IMG/VR virus record: IMGVR_UViG_3300050821_002207 | Location: 1 to 42,236 of that record | Source: a virus | DNA: 42,236 bases | Strand: one strand, 5' to 3' | In this document: positions 1 through 42,236 of the stretch, in pieces | Layout of the letters: each line of letters opens with the position of its first letter | Position numbering within the stretch: position 1 is the stretch's first letter | Translations under genes and position numbers: made by a program | The notes under the pieces: model-generated | Seen by the model: only the letters and a program-made list of their open reading frames with translations | What the model was told of the DNA's origin: nothing | Database searches by the model: none

Positions 1-2239
1 CGGCAAGGCGAAGGCGTGGCTCAACCTGCTGGAGGAGAGCGAGAAGGCGTTCGAGCGCTGGAACGACGCGTGCGACAAGATCGAGAAGCTATACGCAAAT
101 CTGGAGCGTCTCGGCAACGTCGCGCGCGACAAAGAATTCCAGATGTTCTGGGCGAATTGCGAGGTGATCAAGCCCGCGATCTACGCCTCCGCGCCGATCC
201 CGGTGGTGGTGCCGAAATTTCGCGACCGCCGTCCGGTCTACGACGCCGCCTCCGACATGCTGGAGCGCTGCTGCAGCGTCGCGTTCGACATCGCCGACAT
301 CGACAGCCTGATGCTGCTGATCCGCGACGACCTCGCGCTGATCGGACGCGGCGTGCCCTGGTGCCGCTATGAGAGCGCGAAGGAGAACAGCAGCTATTAC
401 AACTGCGAGCGCGTCGCCATCGACTACAAGGGCCGCCACGACTTCCTGCACTCGCTCAGCCGCAACTGGACCGAGGTGACGTGGGTCGCCGCCGCGAGCT
501 ACCTCACGCGCAGCGAGGCGCACGACCGTTTCGAGGAGCACTCGGGCGACGCCTATCAGCAGGCCGAGTATCGCGTCGACCGCGACACCAAGGAGGTCGG
601 CGGCACCGACAATCGCGAGCGCGCCAAGTTCTGGGAAATCTGGCACGCGACCGAGCGGCGCGTCGTGTGGGTCGCGAAGGGCGTCGAGGTCATCCTCGAC
701 GAGGACGAGCCGCACCTCGACCTGTCGAACTTCTTCCCGTGCCCGCGTCCCGCCTACGGCACCGTGCAGCGCAACTCGCTCGTGCCGGTGCCCGACGTGA
801 TGCAGTACAAGGATCAACTCGACGAGATCAACCTGCTGACCGGCCGCATCCACGCGCTCTCGGATGCGCTCGAGGCCAAGGGCTTCTACCCGGCAGGTGG
901 CGCCGAGCTTTCGGACGCGGTGCAGGCGGCGGTGAAGACCAAGACCGCAGGCCGCATGCTGGTGCCGATCTCGAACTGGGCGGCGTTCGGCGGCAGCAAG
1001 GAAGTGATCATCTGGCTGCCCATCGACATGATCGCCGAGACGATCTCGCAGTGCGTCACGCTGCGCCAGCAGGTCATTCAGGACATCTACCAGATCATGG
1101 GGATGTCCGACATCATGCGCGGCGCGACCGACCCGATGGAGACGCTGGGCGCGCAGCAGCTGAAGACGCAGTACGGGTCGAGCCGCATCAGCGACAAGCA
1201 GGACGAGCTTGTCCGCGTCGCGCGCGACCTCGTGCAGATCGCGGCCGAGATCATCACCGACAAGTTCGACACGGTGACGATGATCGAGATGAGCCAGTCG
1301 GTGCTTCCGACGCGCGACATGCAGAAGAAGCAGATCGAGCAGATCACCAACCAGCTGAACAACCAGCAGCAGATGCTGCAGATCGCGACGCAGTCGCCGC
1401 AATTCCAGCAGGCGCAGCAGCAGAACCCGCAGCAGGTCTCCGAACTCTCGCAGCAGGCGCAACAGGCGCAACAGTCCGGTCAGGACGCGATCAAGAAGAT
1501 CATGGAGAAGCCGACCATCGATCAGGTGGTCAAGTTTTTGCGCGACAATCGCACGCGCTCGTTCGTGCTCGACATCGAGACCGACTCGACGATCCAGATC
1601 GACGAGGACGCCGAGAAGCAGCGCCGCTCCGAATTCGTCGGCGTGCTCGCGCAGCTGCTGCCGCAACTCGCCCAGATGATCCAGCTGGACCCCGCCACCG
1701 CGCCGTTCTGCGGCGAGGTGCTCAAGTTCGCGACCGCGCCGTACCGCACCGGGCGCAGCCTTGAGGCCTCAATCGACGACCTCGTCGACGTGATGACCGC
1801 GAAGGTCGGTCAGGGCCAGCCCGACGACCCGACGACCGCGCAGGGCAAGATCGCGATCCAGATCGAGCAGATGAAGGACCAGCGCGAGCGCGACAAGGAC
1901 AAGGCCGACGCCGCGCTCAAGGCGGCCGAGCTTCAGCAGAAGGACAAGCACTTCCAGATCGAGGTCACGAGCAAGCAGCAGATCGAGATGGCGAAGCTGC
2001 AGCAGCACGGTCAGGGCGAGCAGGCCAAGATGGCGCAGACCGGCATGAAGATGCAGCAGTCGCGCGAGGAGCATCAGGCCAACATGGCCGAGATCGGCGC
2101 CGACATGCAGGCCACGCGCGAGAAGGCCGAGATGTCGCAGCAGGCCGCGTTCAACAAGCAGCAGGAATTCCAGCAGCGCCAGGCCGACCGCCGCGCCGCC
2201 GAGCAATTCCGCGCCACACGACCGATGCGAGGCGTGTGA
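1..2239 (+). CDS. Portal protein, 5' end missing
   Basis: Reading frame 2 is open from base 2 to the TGA at 2237-2239, so the N-terminus lies outside the window. About 745 residues are present, close to P22-type portals. A helical start (LERLGNVARDKEFQMFWANC) leads into a body with the KPAIYASAPIPVVVPKF segment, then a long Gln/Lys/Glu-rich helical tail over roughly the last 130 residues. That tail recalls the coiled-coil barrel of P22 gp1; this assignment is by family resemblance. The protein would form the dodecameric ring at the head vertex through which TerL pumps DNA. It heads the late operon and its stop overlaps the next ATG (TGATG). Confidence 0.88.
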   Translation, partial: GKAKAWLNLLEESEKAFERWNDACDKIEKLYANLERLGNVARDKEFQMFWANCEVIKPAIYASAPIPVVVPKFRDRRPVYDAASDMLERCCSVAFDIADIDSLMLLIRDDLALIGRGVPWCRYESAKENSSYYNCERVAIDYKGRHDFLHSLSRNWTEVTWVAAASYLTRSEAHDRFEEHSGDAYQQAEYRVDRDTKEVGGTDNRERAKFWEIWHATERRVVWVAKGVEVILDEDEPHLDLSNFFPCPRPAYGTVQRNSLVPVPDVMQYKDQLDEINLLTGRIHALSDALEAKGFYPAGGAELSDAVQAAVKTKTAGRMLVPISNWAAFGGSKEVIIWLPIDMIAETISQCVTLRQQVIQDIYQIMGMSDIMRGATDPMETLGAQQLKTQYGSSRISDKQDELVRVARDLVQIAAEIITDKFDTVTMIEMSQSVLPTRDMQKKQIEQITNQLNNQQQMLQIATQSPQFQQAQQQNPQQVSELSQQAQQAQQSGQDAIKKIMEKPTIDQVVKFLRDNRTRSFVLDIETDSTIQIDEDAEKQRRSEFVGVLAQLLPQLAQMIQLDPATAPFCGEVLKFATAPYRTGRSLEASIDDLVDVMTAKVGQGQPDDPTTAQGKIAIQIEQMKDQRERDKDKADAALKAAELQQKDKHFQIEVTSKQQIEMAKLQQHGQGEQAKMAQTGMKMQQSREEHQANMAEIGADMQATREKAEMSQQAAFNKQQEFQQRQADRRAAEQFRATRPMRGV

Positions 2240-22986: not shown

Positions 22987-24462
22987 TCACGCTGCACGAT
23001 TGATCGAGACGACGACGCCGCTGGTCGCGGCGGCGATCTGCGCCTGCAGGTCGGCGATCTGCTTCTGCAGGGCAGCCACGTTGACCGACTGCGGGGGCAC
23101 CGGCAAGCCGATGATCCCGCGCAGCAGCCCGTCCAGCATTTCGAGCGTCGGACGCTTCAGCTTCGCGGTCTGCTCTGCGTTGAGGTTTGCGTAGCGTGCT
23201 GTCGTCGTGCTCTCGCCCTTCCCGCGACCGGGGGCGTGGCCGAGAAGCTGCGTGGCGAGCGCGAAGTCGAGGCCTTGGCTGACCAGCAGCGTCGTCACGG
23301 TGTGGCGAATGTCGTGAGGCCGCCAAAACTCCAGCATCATGAATTCGCGCACGCCCCGCCGACGCACCTTGCCGTCGACAGGCTTGAAGCTGTTGTAGCC
23401 ACGGTCGGTCATGTAGTCCGTGAGCATGTGGCGGGTGAACGTCGCGCCGCGCGGGCCGGGCGGGAACAGCGGGCCGGTGATCGCATCCGACATCGCGAGC
23501 AACTCCATGATCGCTTCCTGCGCGAGCGAGTTGAGCGGGTGGTGGATCGGCTTGCGCGGCTTGGTGAGCCATGCCGGGAGACGGACATGCGCGTTCGGCG
23601 TGCCGAGGTCGCGCAGCCACTCGCGCTGGATCGCGCAGATTTCGCCACCGCGCAGACCGCTGCACAGCATCATCCGCATCGCCAGCGCGACCGGGCGCGG
23701 CGCGGGCAGGTTCTCGTCGTCGAGCTTGAACCAAAACGTGCGGATTTCCTCAGCATCGAACGCGCGGTCACGCTCGACCTGCACGGGACGCTTGCCCAAG
23801 TTGCTGCAGGGGTTGGCGCGCACGTACTTGCGGCCGGGCTGGCCCGCCCACTTGAACAGGCCGAACAGCGTCGAGCGCAGGTTCACGGCGAGGCCGGTGT
23901 AGCCCTGCTTGATGATGCCTTCCAGCAGCAGCGCGACGTGGTCGTCGGTGATCGTCGAAACGGCGACCTTGCCGAACGTCTCGCGTGCGCGCTTGAGGTA
24001 GCCGCCCTCGTAACGCGGGCTGCTCGTCGCGCCCTCGATCTCGCGACCGGCGAGCTTCGCCCAGCTTTCGCGGAGCGGGACGACGCCGTGCGCCTTCTTG
24101 GTCGGCGTGCGCAGGTGATCGATGTAGAGGTCGGCGACCTCGTTGAAGGTCTTGCCCTCGGCGCGCTTCTGGTCGAGCACGGTGGTGGCCTGCGCGACGA
24201 TGTCGATGCCGTTGCCGACGTCAGCCTTCATGCGGAGGGCCTTGGCGCGCGCGTGGCTGACGTTGAAGGTCTCGGGGTGGAACACGCCGATCTTGAAGGG
24301 ACCGCGCTGCTTGCCGGTGACCGGGTCCGTGAAGCGCAGGCCGAAGGCCGCGCTGGTCGAGGTGATGCTGACGGTCAGCCCGCCGCAGTCCTCGTCGGTC
24401 AGGCGCTCGCGCTCGACCTTGCCGATCCGCGACCTGATGTAGGTGGTGGTAAACGCAGCCAT
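22987..24462 (-). CDS. int: Tyrosine-family site-specific integrase
   Basis: 491 aa; ATG 24462 has GGGAG seven bases upstream. The N-terminal 100 residues resemble the arm-binding domain of DUF4102-type integrases (LTDEDCGGLTVSITSTSAAF). A SAM-like core-binding domain follows (about 105-220). The catalytic domain shows R271 (CSGLRGGEIC), H383-x-x-R386 (RPHDIRHT), H409 (LLGHA) and nucleophile Y424 (TARYANL). A C-terminal coiled coil (about 460-480) is an extra. It would recombine attP with a chromosomal attB; the non-coding region just upstream is the natural attP or control site. It lies within the leftward set, after the AlpA-type gene. Confidence 0.95.
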   Translation of the reverse strand: MAAFTTTYIRSRIGKVERERLTDEDCGGLTVSITSTSAAFGLRFTDPVTGKQRGPFKIGVFHPETFNVSHARAKALRMKADVGNGIDIVAQATTVLDQKRAEGKTFNEVADLYIDHLRTPTKKAHGVVPLRESWAKLAGREIEGATSSPRYEGGYLKRARETFGKVAVSTITDDHVALLLEGIIKQGYTGLAVNLRSTLFGLFKWAGQPGRKYVRANPCSNLGKRPVQVERDRAFDAEEIRTFWFKLDDENLPAPRPVALAMRMMLCSGLRGGEICAIQREWLRDLGTPNAHVRLPAWLTKPRKPIHHPLNSLAQEAIMELLAMSDAITGPLFPPGPRGATFTRHMLTDYMTDRGYNSFKPVDGKVRRRGVREFMMLEFWRPHDIRHTVTTLLVSQGLDFALATQLLGHAPGRGKGESTTTARYANLNAEQTAKLKRPTLEMLDGLLRGIIGLPVPPQSVNVAALQKQIADLQAQIAAATSGVVVSINRAA

Positions 24463-34715: not shown

Positions 34716-35224
34716 AGCAAGGCGTCCCGTTGACGCAGGGTGATGCAGGTCTGTTCTGGCTTCTGGTGGTGTGCCGTCCCCCGCCCACCGGGATCGGCAT
34801 CTTGTTGGTTTTGGGAGCCGCGCGTCCTGCGCGGTCGTCGTGTGAAAAAATGTAGACCCGTGTTCAGATCATTGTAAATCGGGGGCTTTCTCGGTTTTCG
34901 ACCCCGATCCGTTCCTGCTTCACCTCCTTGACAGCGCCCAACGCGCCCACGGAAGACCACAGTAAACACCGTAAAATCGGCGTGGATTAGAATTTCACAT
35001 GTGGCCGAAATGTGAAGTGTCCCCAACAAAATCAGTGTGCGACACTTTGTATCAATTCCGGTAGGTAGAACACCAAAACATTCTGTCCGTCAGCAGGTTA
35101 CCGCGTTGCACCGTTGACAAAGTAAACTGTCTGTGAGGAGTGTTTATCCACTGCCATGTCAATTGACCTTGACATTTGTAGTCGAATTGACAGCGCCCCT
35201 TTTTCTTCCACAACTGCCGCACCC
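34716..35224. promoter_or_regulatory. Divergent early control region, AT-rich
   Basis: No convincing gene lies in 34716-35155 on either strand. The stretch is AT-rich, unlike the rest, and holds: a hairpin (CCGCGC 34818-34823 with GCGCGG 34829-34834); an inverted repeat TTCACAT (34994-35000) with ATGTGAA (35010-35016); the 12-mer TTGACAGCGCCC twice (34928-34939, 35187-35198); TTGACA boxes at 35114 and 35169; the palindrome GTCAATTGAC (35158-35167); and several GTAAAC/GTAAAA runs. The two early operons must be promoted from here. Clear -10 partners at correct spacing were not found, so promoters are not placed. Confidence 0.7.
34994..35016. promoter_or_regulatory. 23-bp operator-like inverted repeat
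   Basis: TTCACAT and ATGTGAA are exact inverted 7-mers with nine bases between (GTGGCCGAA). The first arm also contains the palindrome CACATGTG. The size and spacing fit a dimeric helix-turn-helix repressor site between the divergent operons. Confidence 0.6.
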
Positions 35225-35515: not shown

Positions 35516-35923
35516 ATGGAAGTCAGACAGCTTGCGCTGTTCAAAGGAGCACGCGCGCGACCGGCTCCGCCGAAGGAGTTTGCGCTTCACTGCGCGCTCG
35601 CCGATCTGGTGACGCGCTGGATCATGCCGGGCTGGATGTTCACGCACATCCCGCTCGGCGAGCACCGCAACAAGGCGACAGCGGTGCGGCTTCAGCGCAT
35701 GGGCGTGAAGCCCGGCTGGCCCGACTTCATCTTCGTGGGTCCGCAGCGTCGCTGCTTCTTCCTCGAGCTCAAGCGGCGCGGCGGATCGCAGAGCGACGAG
35801 CAGGCCAACGTCGCGCTGCACGTCATCCGCAGCGGCTTCGATTATCTGTGTACTGACAATCTCGACGAGGCGGTCGCGGTGCTGCGCGATCTCGGCATCG
35901 TTCGGGCCAGGGTGAGTGCGTAA
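35516..35923 (+). CDS. VRR-NUC domain nuclease
   Basis: ATG 35516 follows GAGGG by six bases. The 135-aa product is a stand-alone VRR-NUC: GVKPGWPDFIFVGPQRRCFF (D70), LELKR (E84-x-K86) and SDEQ (93-96), with a C-terminal helix. This PD-(D/E)XK family includes Holliday-junction and flap-cutting enzymes in phage replication and recombination clusters. It probably trims branched intermediates made during replication. An A9 run follows the TAA stop (35922-35930). Confidence 0.88.
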   Translation: MEVRQLALFKGARARPAPPKEFALHCALADLVTRWIMPGWMFTHIPLGEHRNKATAVRLQRMGVKPGWPDFIFVGPQRRCFFLELKRRGGSQSDEQANVALHVIRSGFDYLCTDNLDEAVAVLRDLGIVRARVSA

Positions 35924-35943
35924 AAAAAAAGATGGGGTGGGAC

Positions 35944-37149
35944 ATGACGCTGATTGAACGGGTGCAATCGATCTATCGCCGGGTGATGCACTGGTGGCGG
36001 CCGGTCAGCGACAGCCGCAGCGAGGCTGCACCGCCGCCGAAGCGCGCGCTGTCGATGAAGCCGCAGTTCGATCTCAACAGCGGCGAGTTCTTTTTCCGCG
36101 AGGCGATCCTCGACCAGCTGGACTACTACTTCACCTGCATCAGGCGATTGCGCCGCGACCCCGATGCCTTCGCGCTCTACTCGCGCATGGGTGCGCTCTT
36201 GGTGCCTCGGCCGCTGGTGGACGACGGCGACGAGCCTTTCATCGACCGTACGCGCGTCTCGCCTTGGTTCGCGCAGACGCTGCCTGATTTTGGCGCGGTG
36301 TTTTATGGCGACGTCGCACTGCGCCGTGAGGCCGAAGCGAAGGACGAGGGCGTGTGGCCGCGCTTCTTCTATTTTCGCAAGTACAAGGCCGGGCGTGCCC
36401 CGTGGAAGATCGAGCCGGTCCACGACGGCGCGGTCTATGTCGTCACCAACTATTTCGACAAGCCGGGGCAAGCTGGCTGGAAGGGCGGCCCGGCCGAATT
36501 CGCGATGGTGGTCGGCAAGGACGGCAGCATGCGGCTGCTGCGCACGCGCACGACCGAGAGCGTCGCCATCCATCACAGGCATGGGCGGCTGCGCGGTCGC
36601 TCCAGTGTGATCGAGCGGCCGGTGTGGGTGAAGGGCGGCGAATTCGCGGCCGAATGGGCGTCGCAGCATCACATGTCGCCCGAGATGCACTCGCAGTTCC
36701 TGTTCGCGCACGCGACGACGCTGTTCGAGCTTGCGAACGCCTCGATGATCCGCGTCAGCGTCAACCGCGATGATCTGACGGCGGTGTTCTCGGTCAACAT
36801 CAAGCGCACGCCGTACTTCTTCAAGGACCGCGACCTGCGGGTGAACGAGAACGGCAACCGCAAGCGCATCTTCCACATCGTGCGCCCGCACGTTCGCGCA
36901 TCCGGCAAGGCGGTGAAGCTGCACTTCCGTGGCGAGCGCGCTTTCGAATGGAACGGATACCGCGTCGTCATCACCGTGCCGGGCAAGCACCACGTCGACT
37001 TCACCGAGATGAATTGTGGACTGGTCGACGGTCGCGAGGGCGAGCGGATCGGCATGGAGGAACTCGGCGAGGTGGCGCGCAAGCACATTCAGCACGGCGC
37101 CAACCTGCGGGAGGAACTGCTGCGCGAGGATCGCGAGAAGGCGGCGTGA
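35944..37149 (+). CDS. Conserved 401-aa phage early protein, unknown function
   Basis: ATG 35944 follows GGGGTGGG; ATG 35932 (MGWD-) lies directly after the A-run and lacks a ribosome site. The body includes NSGEFFFREAILDQLDYYFT, WPRFFYFRKYKAGRAPWKIE, PAEFAMVVGKDGSMRLLRTR, NASMIRVSVNRDDLTAVFSV, NIKRTPYFFKDRDLRVNENG and RIFHIVRPHVRASGKAVKLH. I recognise this as a protein conserved in alphaproteobacterial phages upstream of replication genes, with no assigned activity. It is basic in the second half and may bind nucleic acid. The stop overlaps the methyltransferase start (GTGA). Confidence 0.75.
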   Translation: MTLIERVQSIYRRVMHWWRPVSDSRSEAAPPPKRALSMKPQFDLNSGEFFFREAILDQLDYYFTCIRRLRRDPDAFALYSRMGALLVPRPLVDDGDEPFIDRTRVSPWFAQTLPDFGAVFYGDVALRREAEAKDEGVWPRFFYFRKYKAGRAPWKIEPVHDGAVYVVTNYFDKPGQAGWKGGPAEFAMVVGKDGSMRLLRTRTTESVAIHHRHGRLRGRSSVIERPVWVKGGEFAAEWASQHHMSPEMHSQFLFAHATTLFELANASMIRVSVNRDDLTAVFSVNIKRTPYFFKDRDLRVNENGNRKRIFHIVRPHVRASGKAVKLHFRGERAFEWNGYRVVITVPGKHHVDFTEMNCGLVDGREGERIGMEELGEVARKHIQHGANLREELLREDREKAA

Positions 37150-38036
37150 GCGCTTACTACAACGAGGTCGACCCCTATGCAGCGCAATGGCTGCGCAACC
37201 TCATCGCTGCCGACGTCATCGCCGCAGGCGACGTTGACGAGCGCAGCATCGTCGAGGTGCGCGCCGACGACGTGCGCGGATACGAGCAGTGTCACTTCTT
37301 CGCAGGCGTCGGCGGATGGAGCGTCGCGCTCCGACTCGCCGGATGGCGCGACGCTCGACCTGTTTGGACAGGCTCCTGCCCGTGTCAGCCGTTCTCGCAA
37401 GCAGGCAAGCGCAAAGCCGGGCGTGATGCGCGTCACCTTTGGCCTGCGTGGTTATCTCTCATCGCGCAGTGCCGACCTGCAGTCGTGTTTGGAGAGCAGG
37501 TTGCGGCGGCGGTTGGTTGGGGCTGGCTCGACGTTGTTCTCGCTGACTTGGAGGCGGAAGGGTACGCCTGCGGGGCGACCGTACTTCCAGCTTGTAGCGT
37601 CGGCGCACCGCACATCCGGGATCGCATCTGGTTCGTGGCCGACGCCGACTGGCAAGGACGCGGACGCGAGCGGCGTCCGCTCGAACTGGACGAAGGCGAG
37701 CGGTCGCCACTCGGGCACGACGCTGACGGATGCGGCGCGGCTGGCGACGTGGGCGACGCCGTCAGCGCGCGACATGAAGGGTTCGAACTTGCACTCGCGC
37801 CGGATGCGGCACGGTCGAGCCGACGATCAGCTGGCCAATCAGGTGGCGCATTTTGGGCTGACGCCGAGTGGATCGCCTGCTCGGACGGGTTCGCGCGCCC
37901 AATTGAACCCGGATCATTCCCGCTGGCTCATGGGCTATCGGCGCGCGCACCTCGACTGCGCGCCTACGGCAACGCGATCACGCCGCAAGTCGCGGCAGCT
38001 TTCATCAGCGCCTACGGAGTGAGCGATGCCGCGTGA
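37146..38036 (+). CDS. DNA (cytosine-5) methyltransferase
   Basis: GTG 37146 overlaps the previous stop by GTGA. The 296-aa product has motif I (FFAGVGGW, 51-58), motif IV with catalytic Cys80 (GSCPCQPFSQAGKR), motif VI as GEQVA (116-120, instead of ENV), motif VIII (HIRDRIWFVA) and motif X (RAYGNAITPQVAAAF, 272-286). The target-recognition part (about 165-250) is short and of low complexity. It would methylate cytosines in phage DNA to resist host restriction. Nearly the whole gene is also open in the +1 frame with a conserved product, listed separately. Confidence 0.9.
   Translation: MSAYYNEVDPYAAQWLRNLIAADVIAAGDVDERSIVEVRADDVRGYEQCHFFAGVGGWSVALRLAGWRDARPVWTGSCPCQPFSQAGKRKAGRDARHLWPAWLSLIAQCRPAVVFGEQVAAAVGWGWLDVVLADLEAEGYACGATVLPACSVGAPHIRDRIWFVADADWQGRGRERRPLELDEGERSPLGHDADGCGAAGDVGDAVSARHEGFELALAPDAARSSRRSAGQSGGAFWADAEWIACSDGFARPIEPGSFPLAHGLSARAPRLRAYGNAITPQVAAAFISAYGVSDAA
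37177..38022 (+). CDS. Overlapping +1-frame protein within the methyltransferase gene
   Basis: 281 codons are open in the +1 frame relative to the methyltransferase. The product has DGATLDLFGQAPARVSRSRK, ADLQSCLESRLRRRLVGAGS, TLFSLTWRRKGTPAGRPYFQ, SWPTPTGKDADASG, ATWATPSARDMKGSN and LNPDHSRWLMGYRRAHLDCA. I know these blocks (LxSRLxxxLxxxGSTLxxLTWK, WPTPxxxD, LNPxxSRWLMGxPxxW) from phage proteins encoded at methyltransferase loci. Here the WLMGY-CAPTATRSRRK end is read from the same bases as methyltransferase motif X. The start (37177 or later) is uncertain, and expression is unproven. Confidence 0.5.
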   Translation: MQRNGCATSSLPTSSPQATLTSAASSRCAPTTCADTSSVTSSQASADGASRSDSPDGATLDLFGQAPARVSRSRKQASAKPGVMRVTFGLRGYLSSRSADLQSCLESRLRRRLVGAGSTLFSLTWRRKGTPAGRPYFQLVASAHRTSGIASGSWPTPTGKDADASGVRSNWTKASGRHSGTTLTDAARLATWATPSARDMKGSNLHSRRMRHGRADDQLANQVAHFGLTPSGSPARTGSRAQLNPDHSRWLMGYRRAHLDCAPTATRSRRKSRQLSSAPTE

Positions 38037-38543: not shown

Positions 38544-38752
38544 CGGCGTGGCTGGTCTGTCCCGAGTGTGGCTGCGGCAAGGGCGAGGATCACAAGCGCG
38601 GCTGCCTGCGCCGTCACGCGCCGCCGATCATGGACTACAGCAAGCTGCCGCGTGCGCCGGGCAAGATGCGTGGCCCGACGCCGCGTCCGCTGCTGCCGGT
38701 GACCGAGGCTGAGCCGTACAAGCATCGCGCAACATCGGTGGTGAAGCCATGA
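38540..38752 (+). CDS. Small zinc-finger-like protein, 70 aa
   Basis: ATG 38540 overlaps the previous stop (ATGA) and the end overlaps the next ATG (ATGA). The N-terminus, WLVCPECGCGKGEDHKRGCL, with C7, C10, C12, H18 and C22, suits a compact metal site. The rest is Pro/Lys/Arg-rich and disordered (KLPRAPGKMRGPTPRPLLPV). Placed directly before the VirE ATPase gene, it might assist replication initiation. That is inferred from position. Confidence 0.68.
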   Translation: MTAWLVCPECGCGKGEDHKRGCLRRHAPPIMDYSKLPRAPGKMRGPTPRPLLPVTEAEPYKHRATSVVKP

Positions 38753-39960
38753 CGGATGTTGTCTCGTTCAACGACGTGGTGCGCGCGCAGTGGAAGTCGC
38801 GCTGCACGCTGACGCCGAAGGGCAAGCTGATCGCCAACGTCGCGAACGCGCTGATGGCGGTGCGGTGCGATCCCGATCTGCGCGACTGCTATGGCTTCGA
38901 CGAGATGGCGCAGGCGACGGTGATCCGCCGCGAGATCGGCGGCAGCGAGGACGGCCGCGACCGCATGGCGACCGATGGCGACGTCGTCCATCTGGTCGAG
39001 TGGCTGCAGCAGAACGGCATGCCGCTGCTGAGCAACGAGGCTGCGCGCAGCGCCATGAACGTGGTGGCGCACGAGCACTGCTTCCACCCGGTGATCGACT
39101 ATCTGACGTCGCTCAGCTGGGACGGCGTCGAGCGCCTCGGCGTGTGGCTCACGACCTACCTCGGTGCCGAGTTGAACGCCTACACCGGGCACATCGGACG
39201 CATGTTCCTGACCTCGATGGTGGCGCGCGTCGTCTCGCCCGGCTGCCAAGCTGACCACATGCCGGTGTTCGAGGGGCCGCAGGGCATCCTCAAGAGCAGC
39301 GCGTGTCGCGTGCTCGGTGGACCGTGGTTCTCGGACAACCTGCCCGACATCACGAGCGGTCGCGAGGCCAGCCAGCACTTGCGCGGCAAATGGCTGGTCG
39401 AGGTCGCCGAGATGCACGCGATGAGCCGCGCCGAGGCCGCGCTGCTCAAGAGCTTCATCTCGCGCACCGTCGAGCGCTATCGCCCATCGTACGGCCGGTT
39501 CGAGGTGCATGAGAAACGCCAGTGCGTGTTTGCAGGCACGACCAACGAGGATCAGTACCTGCGCGACGCGACCGGCGGTCGCCGCTTCTGGCCGGTGAAG
39601 ACCGGCATCACCGGACGCATCTCGCTCGACCTACTCGCCGAAAATCGCGACCAGCTGTTCGCCGAAGCTGTGGAGAACTACAACAATCACGGCTCATGGT
39701 GGCCCGACCAGCAGTTCGAGCGCGAACTGATCAAACCCGAACAGGCCGCGCGCTACGCAGGCGACATCTGGGAGGACCGCATCCAAGAGTGGATCGCGGG
39801 CCGCCACCGCGTCACGGTCGGCGAGATCGCACGCGACTGCCTCTCGATCCCGGCAGGGCAAATGCGCGCGGAGCACAGCGTCCGCATCGCCAACGTGCTG
39901 CGCGACTGCGGCTGGGCCGCGAAGCGCACAGGACGCTCGCGCTGGTGGGAGTTTGTGTAG
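38749..39960 (+). CDS. VirE-family replication ATPase (primase/helicase-like)
   Basis: ATG 38749 overlaps the upstream stop by ATGA. The 403-aa product has a helical N-terminal part, HPVIDYLTSLSWDGVERLGV at about 113-132, and Walker A as FEGPQGILKSS (174-184). Walker B-like WLVEVAEM (215-222), a sensor block (AGTTNEDQYLRDATGGRRFW, 262-281), and a C-terminal winged helix (about 355-403) follow. This is the layout of phage VirE/DUF3631-type ATPases, usually the replicative helicase or loader when no DnaB is present. The next 264 bases look like a replication origin, where its winged helix could bind. Confidence 0.88.
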   Translation: MTDVVSFNDVVRAQWKSRCTLTPKGKLIANVANALMAVRCDPDLRDCYGFDEMAQATVIRREIGGSEDGRDRMATDGDVVHLVEWLQQNGMPLLSNEAARSAMNVVAHEHCFHPVIDYLTSLSWDGVERLGVWLTTYLGAELNAYTGHIGRMFLTSMVARVVSPGCQADHMPVFEGPQGILKSSACRVLGGPWFSDNLPDITSGREASQHLRGKWLVEVAEMHAMSRAEAALLKSFISRTVERYRPSYGRFEVHEKRQCVFAGTTNEDQYLRDATGGRRFWPVKTGITGRISLDLLAENRDQLFAEAVENYNNHGSWWPDQQFERELIKPEQAARYAGDIWEDRIQEWIAGRHRVTVGEIARDCLSIPAGQMRAEHSVRIANVLRDCGWAAKRTGRSRWWEFV

Positions 39961-40026
39961 AGGCGTCACCAGCCGTCACCACCGTCACCACGCCGGCAGG
40001 AATGTCACACCGGTAGGCGTCACACC

Positions 40027-40046
40027 CGTCACCATGCATGGTGACG
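40027..40046. repeat. 20-bp perfect palindrome
   Basis: CGTCACCATGCATGGTGACG is its own reverse complement. It joins two iterons head to head and contains CATGCATG at its centre. It is likely a dimer-binding site for the initiator or a cruciform-forming element. Confidence 0.85.
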
Positions 40047-40048
40047 CC

Positions 40049-40134
40049 GTGACGCCTGTGACGGCTGTTTCTTATCTCTCACCATGAATACCTAAATGTA
40101 AGGGTACATAAGAGAAGGGCGTCACAGGCGTCAC
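40049..40134. repeat. 15-bp inverted repeat around an AT-rich core
   Basis: GTGACGCCTGTGACG (40049-40063) and CGTCACAGGCGTCAC (40120-40134) are exact inverted copies 56 bases apart. Inner pairs TCTTAT (40070-40075) with ATAAGA (40108-40113) and TACC with GGTA extend the symmetry. The enclosed sequence is the most AT-rich of this region. Confidence 0.85.
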
Positions 40135-40224
40135 CCGTCACCACAGCCGATGATTACCGCTTGCCACCTCGTAAAACTGCGCGCATTTTAACGGAACCCC
40201 TCGCTCGGCCGACCCCTGAGCGAA

Positions 40225-40536
40225 ATGCCCTACGCACCAACCGATTTGAGATCGCTGGCGCGCGCCCACACCGAGATGGCGCTGAAGACGCTTGCGGGCA
40301 TCGCAGCCAGCGGAGCGAACGAAGCTGCGCGCGTTTCAGCGGCTGTGCATCTTTTGGATCGCGGCTGGGGCAAGGCGCCGCAAACGCACACTGGCGAGGA
40401 CGGCGAAGGCGCGATCACGATCCTGATCAGGCACATCGTCGAGACCGCTGTCGAGCCGCGTGCGCTCGACGGCAAGGCGACGCCGCGCGTGCTCGACCAA
40501 CGCAAGCAGACAAAGAAGCCGGATGAGGGCGCATGA
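40225..40536 (+). CDS. TerS-like small protein preceding terminase
   Basis: ATG 40225 gives 103 aa; the ribosome site is weak. The opening APTDLRSLARAHTEMALKTL, then AGIAASGANEAARVSAAVHL, LDRGWGKAPQTHTGEDGEGA, is a pattern I know from genes just upstream of terL in alphaproteobacterial phages (IAxSxTxxAxxTLxxIAxxGxxExARVxAxxxLLDRGWGKP). It fits a small terminase subunit or DNA-recognition factor: the N-terminal helices could read the packaging site. The C-terminus is basic (RKQTKKPDEGA). TerS function is inferred from position. Confidence 0.72.
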   Translation: MPYAPTDLRSLARAHTEMALKTLAGIAASGANEAARVSAAVHLLDRGWGKAPQTHTGEDGEGAITILIRHIVETAVEPRALDGKATPRVLDQRKQTKKPDEGA

Positions 40537-40886
40537 CGCAGCATGTAGCCCCACTCATTCTGCTGGAAAGCGCGACGGCGCGAGGAAGCGCCTGCGCTGC
40601 AGCGACTTCCCGCATCGTGGCCCAAGGCTGGCACTACCTCGGCACTACGCTGTGGGGCTGGGCCGCTTGCCACACACTTGGGCGCTGGTGCGCCGGTCGG
40701 GTGGGTTCGGCACCTGACAGCGCGCGACCCCGCGCGCACGCACCAGCGCCCCGCGCTGGGCAGGCACGGCCCGGCGTAGCCCGGCAGGACCCCCGGTCAC
40801 CCTCCGGGGCACATGTCCGGAAAAAGAATGCTTTAGGGCAGGAGGTAATCGACGAGGCTCTGACTTCTTCGCGAGGCCTGCGCTGA
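40533..40886 (+). CDS. Doubtful 117-aa reading frame in the terS-terL gap
   Basis: ATG 40533 overlaps the previous stop (ATGA) and the stop overlaps terL (TGATG), which argues for translation. Against it, codon third positions are clearly less GC-rich than in neighbours, and the product is unusual (Trp/Cys-rich, then Arg/Pro/Ala-rich, APAPRAGQARPGVARQDPRS). Only the last 24 residues (KKNALGQEVIDEALTSSRGL) look protein-like. Either a fast-evolving small protein or mainly structured non-coding DNA with a chance open frame. See the hairpins listed separately. Confidence 0.35.
   Translation: MTQHVAPLILLESATARGSACAAATSRIVAQGWHYLGTTLWGWAACHTLGRWCAGRVGSAPDSARPRAHAPAPRAGQARPGVARQDPRSPSGAHVRKKNALGQEVIDEALTSSRGLR
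40743..40809. promoter_or_regulatory. Cluster of GC-rich hairpins upstream of terL
   Basis: CCAGCGC (40743-40749) pairs with GCGCTGG (40753-40759) over three bases, and CCCCGG (40791-40796) with CCGGGG (40804-40809) over seven. Between them CCCGGC is repeated (GGCCCGGCGTAGCCCGGCAG). Location between a TerS-like gene and terL makes this a candidate packaging (pac or cos) site or an mRNA control element. Confidence 0.45.
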
Positions 40887-42236
40887 TGGAGATCACGCTC
40901 CCTCACAACGGCTGGCTCCCGCGCGCGCACCAGATGCGGCTGTGGACGCACCTGCAGGACGGCGGGAAGCGCGCGATGGCGGTGTGGCATCGGCGTGCGG
41001 GCAAGGACGAGATTTGTCTGCACCACGCCAGCTGCGCGGCCTTTAAAAGGGCCGGGAATTACTGGCATTGCCTCCCCGAGTTTTTGCAGGGTCGCAAGGC
41101 GATCTGGACGGCGATTAACGCGCACACCGGCAAGCGTCGCATCGACGAGGCGTTTCCGCCGCACATGCGCGAGACGACCAACGACAACGAGATGTTCATT
41201 CGCTTTCTGAACGGCTCGACGTGGCAGATCATCGGGTCCGACCGCTACGACGCGACGGTGGGCGCGGGTGTTGCGGGCATCACCTACAGCGAGTGGGCGC
41301 TCGCGAACCCGAGCGCGTGGGCCTACCACCGGCCGATGTTGGAGGAGAACAACGGCTGGGCGGCTTTCATCACGACGCCGCGCGGTCGCAACCACGCGCA
41401 CGCGATGTTCAAGCATGCGCAGGGCAACCCGAACTGGTTCTCCGAGCTTCAGACCGCGCTCGACACGCACGCGCTCACGCAGGAGCAGCTGGACGAGGCG
41501 CTTGCCGAGTACCAGGCGCTCTACGGCGAGGACGTCGGCACCGCGCAATTCCAGCAGGAGTACATGTGCGATTGGAGCGCGGCGATCCTCGGCGCCTTCT
41601 ACGCGTTCGAGATGGCGCGCGTGCGCGCTGAGGAGCGCATCCTCGACATCGACGCGATCCCCGGCGAGCCGGTCCACCGCGCGTGGGACTTGGGCATGAC
41701 CGACGACACCAGCATCTGGTTTTTTCAGGTGGTGGGCGCGCAGATTTTCATCCTCGACCACTACGCCACGAGCGGCGTCAGTCTGGAGCACTACCGCGAC
41801 GAGATCGCGCGGCGCTATCGCGAGCGTGGCTGGCAGCATGGCAACGACCATGTGCCGCACGACGCCAAGGTGAAGGAGCTTGGCACCGGTCGCACGCGCG
41901 TCGAGACGATGATCAGTCTCGGGCTGCACCCGATCCTTGTGCCGAACGCGAGCATCGAGGACGGCCGCAACGCGGTGCGCAGGACGCTGCCGCTGTGCGT
42001 GTTTCATCCGCGCTGCGAGGCGACCGGCATCGAGGCGCTGGAGCAGTACCGGCGCGAGTGGGACGACGAGAAGAAGGCGTTCCGCGCCAACGCCGTCCAC
42101 GACTGGACCTCGCATCCGGCCGACAGCTTCCGCTACCTCGCGCTCAGCTGGCGCCCGGCGCCGAGCATCGCGCCGAAGGAGCCGGTGAAGCTGCCGAGCG
42201 CATGGATCATCCCGCCCCCGCGTGACGTGCATCGTG
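40886..42236 (+). CDS. terL: Terminase large subunit, 3' end missing
   Basis: ATG 40886 overlaps the previous stop (TGATG) with GAGG at 40873-40876. It is open to the last base: 450 residues and no stop. Motifs: Walker A as HRRAGKDE (35-42), Walker B as GITYSEWALA (131-140), the coupling motif FITTPRGRN (161-169), and the RNase-H-fold nuclease with D268 (WDLGMTDDTS), D326 (VPHDAK) and D406/D413 (HDWTSHPADSFRY). It is the ATP-driven motor and headful or cos cleavage enzyme that fills the procapsid through the portal. Probably a few tens of residues are missing at the end. Confidence 0.95.
   Translation, partial: MEITLPHNGWLPRAHQMRLWTHLQDGGKRAMAVWHRRAGKDEICLHHASCAAFKRAGNYWHCLPEFLQGRKAIWTAINAHTGKRRIDEAFPPHMRETTNDNEMFIRFLNGSTWQIIGSDRYDATVGAGVAGITYSEWALANPSAWAYHRPMLEENNGWAAFITTPRGRNHAHAMFKHAQGNPNWFSELQTALDTHALTQEQLDEALAEYQALYGEDVGTAQFQQEYMCDWSAAILGAFYAFEMARVRAEERILDIDAIPGEPVHRAWDLGMTDDTSIWFFQVVGAQIFILDHYATSGVSLEHYRDEIARRYRERGWQHGNDHVPHDAKVKELGTGRTRVETMISLGLHPILVPNASIEDGRNAVRRTLPLCVFHPRCEATGIEALEQYRREWDDEKKAFRANAVHDWTSHPADSFRYLALSWRPAPSIAPKEPVKLPSAWIIPPPRDVHR

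Follow-up and report, generated by a model that had tools for sequence, protein, structure and literature searches.

Initiator Helicases and Their Origins

The alpha protein of satellite P4 is an initiator helicase whose C-terminal winged helix binds the origin, where the iterons are of the GGTGA type; the protein is a primase-helicase fusion and needs a second site, crr. Iteron plasmid origins utilise a Rep_3/RepA-type initiator, DnaA boxes, and iterons together with an AT-rich melting region, and the Rep_3 protein recruits DnaA/DnaB. The origins of PICIs are found directly 3' of rep, where two sets of iterons always flank an AT-rich region, and this rep-ori unit replicates a plasmid (PMC6092414). 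In SCCmec, the Cch2 helicase uses its C-terminal domain to bind AAGTG direct repeats that follow closely after the cch2 gene (PMC7581432).

The locus described here is found in a single virus record, IMGVR_UViG_3300050821_002207, whose entire 42,236 bp are referred to below as the window. An AT-cored repeat region beside a VirE-type ATPase gene (here called VapE) had been read from the letters of the window as a candidate phage replication origin. This proposal gains computational support from a survey of related loci, from a structural match to SaPI PriRep1, and from the published layout of the SaPI/PICI rep-ori.

The system belongs to a known kind, the SaPI/PICI-type initiator-origin module, in this case carried by a phage. 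As in the published descriptions of SaPIs, there is a VapE-family helicase with a C-terminal domain predicted to bind DNA, a putative origin directly 3' of the initiator gene (an offset common to the window's relatives), and iteron sets around an AT-rich region, in this case sets A-C on one side and set D on the other (Table 1). VapE itself matches SaPI PriRep1 (PDB 7pds, 'Similar to D. nodosus vapE') in both sequence and fold. In contrast to the SaPI/PICI case, the module resides in an integrase-encoding tailed phage with no recognised primase, its word is CGTCAC, and it has at least three iteron sets with a polar 10-then-8 triplet. Cch2 offers a second parallel, with short repeats just downstream of a helicase gene and a C-terminal domain as the binder (in our case a proposed one); however, Cch2 is a D5/Primase_Cterm-type helicase with only three iterons and no mirrored sets.

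The likeness to P4 alpha, as that protein is described above, lies in the combination of an initiator helicase, a C-terminal winged helix, and iterons. Unlike alpha, the VapE of the window is not fused to a primase: in longer PHROG families, its 403 residues match just the helicase portion at the C-terminus. Iteron plasmid origins share the iterons and the AT-rich melting region, whereas the putative initiator here is a helicase and the iterons are 5-8 bp long and spaced 8-10 bp apart. A DnaA-dependent origin of the plasmid type was considered and rejected, since no DnaA-box match was found in 39961-40145 when up to one mismatch was allowed, and none of the proteins scanned matched Rep_3, the neighbouring protein being VapE-like. 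Literature searches returned no paper describing phage VapE origins, which does not in itself establish that none exists.

Gene Content of the Window

The integrase, RecE- and RecT-like, methyltransferase, and portal genes, along with the terminase-like genes at the right end, are the reason why the record reads as a temperate tailed phage. Behind the small-terminase-like gene comes an open reading frame of 450 aa, which at the DNA level matches a large terminase annotated in a phage. Among the phage proteins scanned, no primase was recognised. The replication gene cluster also contains a 405-aa open reading frame (35932-37149) that overlaps the methyltransferase frame by approximately 200 bp, and its product has no Pfam, PHROG, or NCBIfam match. 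A VRR-NUC-like gene is located upstream of VapE at 35516-35923. Three DnaA-box-like matches fall within 372 bp (34841-35212) beside the RecE-like gene, one of them perfect to TTWTNCACA. The VapE proteins of the closest relatives are also about 400 aa long and do not have the N-terminal extension that is common in other phage VapE proteins.

Table 1. Features of the candidate origin and of the surrounding phage genes (window coordinates; GTCAC and GTGAC positions are start positions, spacings in bp).
Feature	Position	Strand	Remarks
Portal gene	143-2239		
Integrase gene	22990-24462	-	
RecE- and RecT-like genes	33.0-34.7 kb	-	
Cytosine-C5 methyltransferase gene	36948-38036		
VapE-family AAA+ initiator helicase gene, 403 aa	38749-39960	+	PF05272, E=1.3e-74; PHROG 256/1313, DNA helicase
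Codons of C-terminal winged-helix domain, residues 339-403	39763-39957	+	Proposed iteron reader; AlphaFold model
Whole candidate origin	39961-40145	.	12 CGTCAC-type iterons around AT-rich core
Iteron triplet A	39964-39989	+	GTCAC at 39965, 39975, 39984; spacing 10, 9
Single iteron TGTCAC	40003-40008	+	GTCAC at 40004
Iteron pair B	40018-40032	+	GTCAC at 40019, 40028; spacing 9
Perfect 20-bp palindrome	40027-40046	.	Last iteron of B and first of C
Inverted iteron triplet C	40041-40063	-	GTGAC at 40041, 40049, 40058; spacing 8, 9
AT-rich core	40064-40118	.	Low GC; presumed melting site
Iteron triplet D	40119-40142	+	GTCAC at 40121, 40130, 40137; spacing 9, 7; mirrors C
Small-terminase-like gene	40225-40533	+	PHROG 10899, terminase small subunit, weak, E=0.002; PHROG 15261; adjoins array, outside origin

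A Repeat Array Directly Downstream of VapE

The gap that holds the array starts one base past the VapE stop codon (39960), and the first iteron is no more than 5 bp from the stop. An exact count returns 12 GTCAC elements, nine forward and three reverse, in agreement with the sequence-only reading of at least twelve in both orientations, and 11 of the 12 read CGTCAC. The two perfect symmetries in that reading are likewise exact: a 20-bp palindrome (CGTCACCATG/CATGGTGACG) and a 15-bp inverted repeat whose arms are 40049-40063 and 40120-40134. The AT-rich core was also borne out, with 35% GC over 40070-40112 compared with approximately 66% overall, and its 40-mer at 33% GC is the lowest-GC 40-mer sampled in the window. 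The array has no match to an Rfam family.

This density is far above chance. Dinucleotide-preserving shuffles of the region (n=5000) contain 1.4 GTCAC elements on average and six at most, and in 1000 shuffles no 5-mer of any kind reaches 12 copies. The layout had been called unlike any other gap in the window, and the densest other 185-bp stretch of its 42 kb has three GTCAC elements versus 12. Seven of the window's eight GTCAC pairs with a gap of 2-5 bp are located in the array, against a whole-window expectation of 0.65.

The iterons are arranged with a polarity. Along its own direction, each triplet has a spacing of about 10 bp followed by 7-8 bp, making C and D mirror images about the core, and the step from C to D across the core is 63 bp. 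For triplet A, a 10-then-7/8 spacing is found in the relatives L002 and L004-L008. In L004-L009, and partly in L002, set A is spaced ~10/8, B 8-10, C ~8/10, and D ~10/6-8, with a core step of 64-73. Some of the closest relatives share the iteron word CGTCAC, while L008 has GCGTCAT and L009 has GTGTCAC.

It could be argued that replication starts elsewhere, for example in the divergent region 34716-35224, with the array serving VapE as a secondary or accessory site. The cumulative GC skew has its minimum near 33-34 kb and not at 40 kb, and DnaA-box-like matches are present at 34841, 35144, and 35204. However, the skew is weak and could follow a coding-strand switch, while DnaA-box matches in the whole window are no more frequent than chance (11 versus 12.6 expected). 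The region 34716-35224, which had been named beforehand as a place where replication might start instead, was searched and has no iteron array comparable to that after VapE. A start outside the array is considered extremely unlikely.

The VapE Helicase and Its Winged Helix

The C-terminal winged helix that had been attributed to the VirE-type ATPase is present in the AlphaFold model of VapE (mean pLDDT 93), where it is made up of helices 340-349, 357-364, and 374-386 and strands 389-394 and 397-402. The top Foldseek match by far is SaPI PriRep1 with double-stranded DNA (7pds, TMq 0.75-0.81), and the same entry is the sole convincing PDB sequence match (profile, E=3e-78). The proposal that the winged helix of VapE reads the iterons fits both the match to a dsDNA-bound SaPI protein and the published SaPI/PICI rep-ori arrangement.

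After removal of overall VapE similarity, iteron similarity and recognition-helix similarity co-vary weakly (partial r 0.106, permutation p 0.001, without tree correction). Because the covariation is weak, the argument for binding by the winged-helix domain is made from kinship instead, and an attempt to derive a recognition code from the helix sequence was dropped for the same reason. A helix signature of the MRxEH type accompanies CGTCA[C/T] in the closest relatives, and CGTCA also occurs with other helices.

The presence of a winged helix does not significantly separate loci with an array from those without one (Fisher p 0.13), since almost every VapE protein has a winged helix in one form or another. 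In one branch of VapE proteins (L027-L049, L181-L182), the C-terminus has diverged and follows the pattern DTARQS..DV.RV.KVLRGLGFKKVRP. No repeat array was found after VapE in this branch, whose origin may be located elsewhere or be differently built.

Arrays across VapE Loci

VapE matches are present in 625 of 50,697 phage records. The window's VapE was utilised to fetch 51 IMG/VR loci, and more were obtained with an alignment and two other queries; five loci from bacterial genomes and several named phages were included, and the removal of near-duplicates left 131 scorable VapE loci. The repeat score was that of the most surprising 7-mer, on both strands of a 300-bp interval, relative to a first-order background of the same locus. 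Directly past the VapE stop, the 300-bp interval scores 7.8 on average, and 59% of the 131 loci score at least 6; the other offsets, from -2700 to +2400, all have means of 0.8-2.0, with 0-6% of loci scoring that high. In 84 of the 131 loci, the interval after VapE has the highest score of all, and further arrays are missed by the 7-mer score (for example those of L075, L086, L092, L113, L135, and L159). Relatives with the same VirE gene and no repeats had been named as what would speak against an origin; repeats are instead the rule among VapE loci.

The repeat word varies from locus to locus (CGTCAC, GTGTCAC, GCGTCATG, ATACACC, and others). A motif was fitted in each of 91 array loci, and the same pipeline was applied as a control to intervals surrounding VapE in those loci. 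Neighbouring sites in the same orientation are 8-10 bp apart in 314 of 534 cases (59%), compared with 32 of 249 (13%) in the controls. Runs of three are found in 81 of 91 array loci versus 14 of 88 controls, and triplets in both orientations in 40 of 91 versus none of 88. Where unequal spacing could be compared between orientations, its polarity agrees in 20 loci and disagrees in six (one-sided sign test, p ~0.005, which is indicative as the loci are related). The lowest-GC 40-mer of the array is in the bottom 2% of its locus in 79 of 91 cases; it is flanked by runs in 60 loci, and in 58 of these the runs are oppositely oriented. Thus, the layout and place of the array are conserved while the word changes between lineages. 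A comparison of repeat spacing in related phages had been proposed; the 8-10 bp spacing persists, and the word itself does not.

In some loci, the array is found at a distance from VapE. L003 and L011 (VapE 67% identical) have no array directly after the gene; a CGTCATG array follows downstream of inserted sequence, at 2.4-2.7 kb in L003 and 1.5-1.8 kb in L011, and its word resembles that of the window. In L147, TTCAGG repeats are located approximately 330 bp downstream of VapE, and the arrays of L073, L120, and L131 are likewise displaced. The retention of an array that has been separated from VapE argues against a simple 3'-end transcript signal.

The survey also bears on two functions suggested by the genes downstream. 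Terminase binding sites often adjoin terS, and in the window and several array-bearing close relatives a terminase-like gene pair follows the array, so that it could be a packaging (cos/pac) site to which the product of the neighbouring downstream small-terminase gene binds. However, in 80 of the 91 VapE loci with an array, the fetched flanks contain nothing related to the window's TerS or TerL, which makes a terminase site very unlikely, and arrays also follow VapE in plasmids and in phages where the next genes encode a nuclease and a helicase. The rightward HTH protein, which had been proposed as a possible reader of the array, is small-terminase-like and was set aside, as arrays occur without it.

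Alternatively, the repeats might be operators of a transcription regulator for the terminase or late genes, given their intergenic position upstream of the packaging genes and the HTH proteins that the phage encodes. Against this, the array tracks VapE and not any one regulator or downstream gene, and no sigma-70-like promoter (the one type searched for) was found at 38600-41000; on these grounds the chance of an operator cluster is judged to be slight in the extreme. Moreover, an operator would not usually need 12 sites, with triplets mirrored about the stretch of lowest GC.

Arrays in Named Phages, a Satellite, and Plasmids

Arrays, each with its own word, are found directly or one gene after VapE in phages of both Gram-negative and Gram-positive hosts: Marinobacter PS3, Yersinia YeP4, Paenibacillus GaryLarson, Enterococcus phiFL4A, Streptococcus MissE2, Corynebacterium Adelaide, Staphylococcus 3A and SAP11, and Pseudomonas LPPA36, where one extra gene separates VapE from the array. 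The streptococcal satellite Javan608 also has an array. Acidovorax phage Aval has a weak one, and none was found in a Bacteroides phage that has no gap after VapE. In four phages, of Staphylococcus, Paenibacillus, Enterococcus, and Corynebacterium (L189, L192, L193, and L197), VapE and its array are followed by a nuclease and a helicase gene, the nuclease being annotated VRR-NUC in three of them.

VapE matches were also found in 108 plasmid records. The smallest plasmid examined, pGO128 of Gluconobacter oxydans (4,340 bp), encodes VapE along with a resolvase, an HTH_36 protein, and two small proteins; after VapE, an AT-rich stretch is surrounded by GTGCT words of both orientations (L198:2685-3000). 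The VapE relative is the best candidate for the replication gene of pGO128, although the HTH_36 protein might also be the initiator. In pKNA06, pYe4449-2, and p1318-5, VapE is again followed by such an array, with triplets spaced 9/9 on both sides in p1318-5. Since a plasmid must carry an origin, the presence of VapE and an array on plasmids favours origin function, even if another gene could be the initiator.

Proposed Replication Initiation at the Array

Taken together, an iteron content far above chance, a position conserved after VapE, the kinship of VapE with SaPI PriRep1, and the arrays on plasmids suggest that 39961-40145 is very probably an origin of replication. The fuller proposal, that this phage origin is bound by VapE and fires bidirectionally from assemblies placed by sets C and D, is held with considerable confidence on the basis of sequence, structural modelling, and analogy. 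VapE, encoded just upstream, would bind the CGTCAC iterons via its C-terminal winged helix. Sets C and D, inverted and mirror-spaced around the AT-rich core, would place two VapE assemblies face to face, and these would melt the core and load as helicases moving outward, giving rise to bidirectional forks. The host DNA polymerase would then copy from the melted core. Given that no primase was recognised in the phage, priming would probably be performed by the host primase.

It is tempting to speculate that the polar three-iteron units (10 then 7-8), mirrored across the AT-rich core, act as a ruler for the head-to-head loading of two helicase rings, and that each lineage has its own initiator/iteron pair; this idea is put forward tentatively, at somewhat less than even confidence. 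No description of a polar, mirrored triplet anatomy shared by VapE-family origins was found in the literature consulted, and this anatomy may be new. The catalogue of initiator/iteron pairs and the generality of the arrangement across phages, satellites, and plasmids may be among the newer parts as well.

Implications for VapE-Encoding Elements

Phages, satellites, and plasmids commonly carry VapE/VirE genes, whose role in replication is often obscured by the name. An array that is fixed in place after the VapE gene and varied in word offers a practical means of finding origins from sequence alone. It also provides a natural set of matched initiators and sites, which could be utilised to examine specificity, origin compatibility, and the competition between phages and satellites. 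If the proposal is true, approximately 100 initiator/iteron pairs could show how a winged helix chooses its word, and could predict between which phages, satellites, and plasmids origins are interchangeable.
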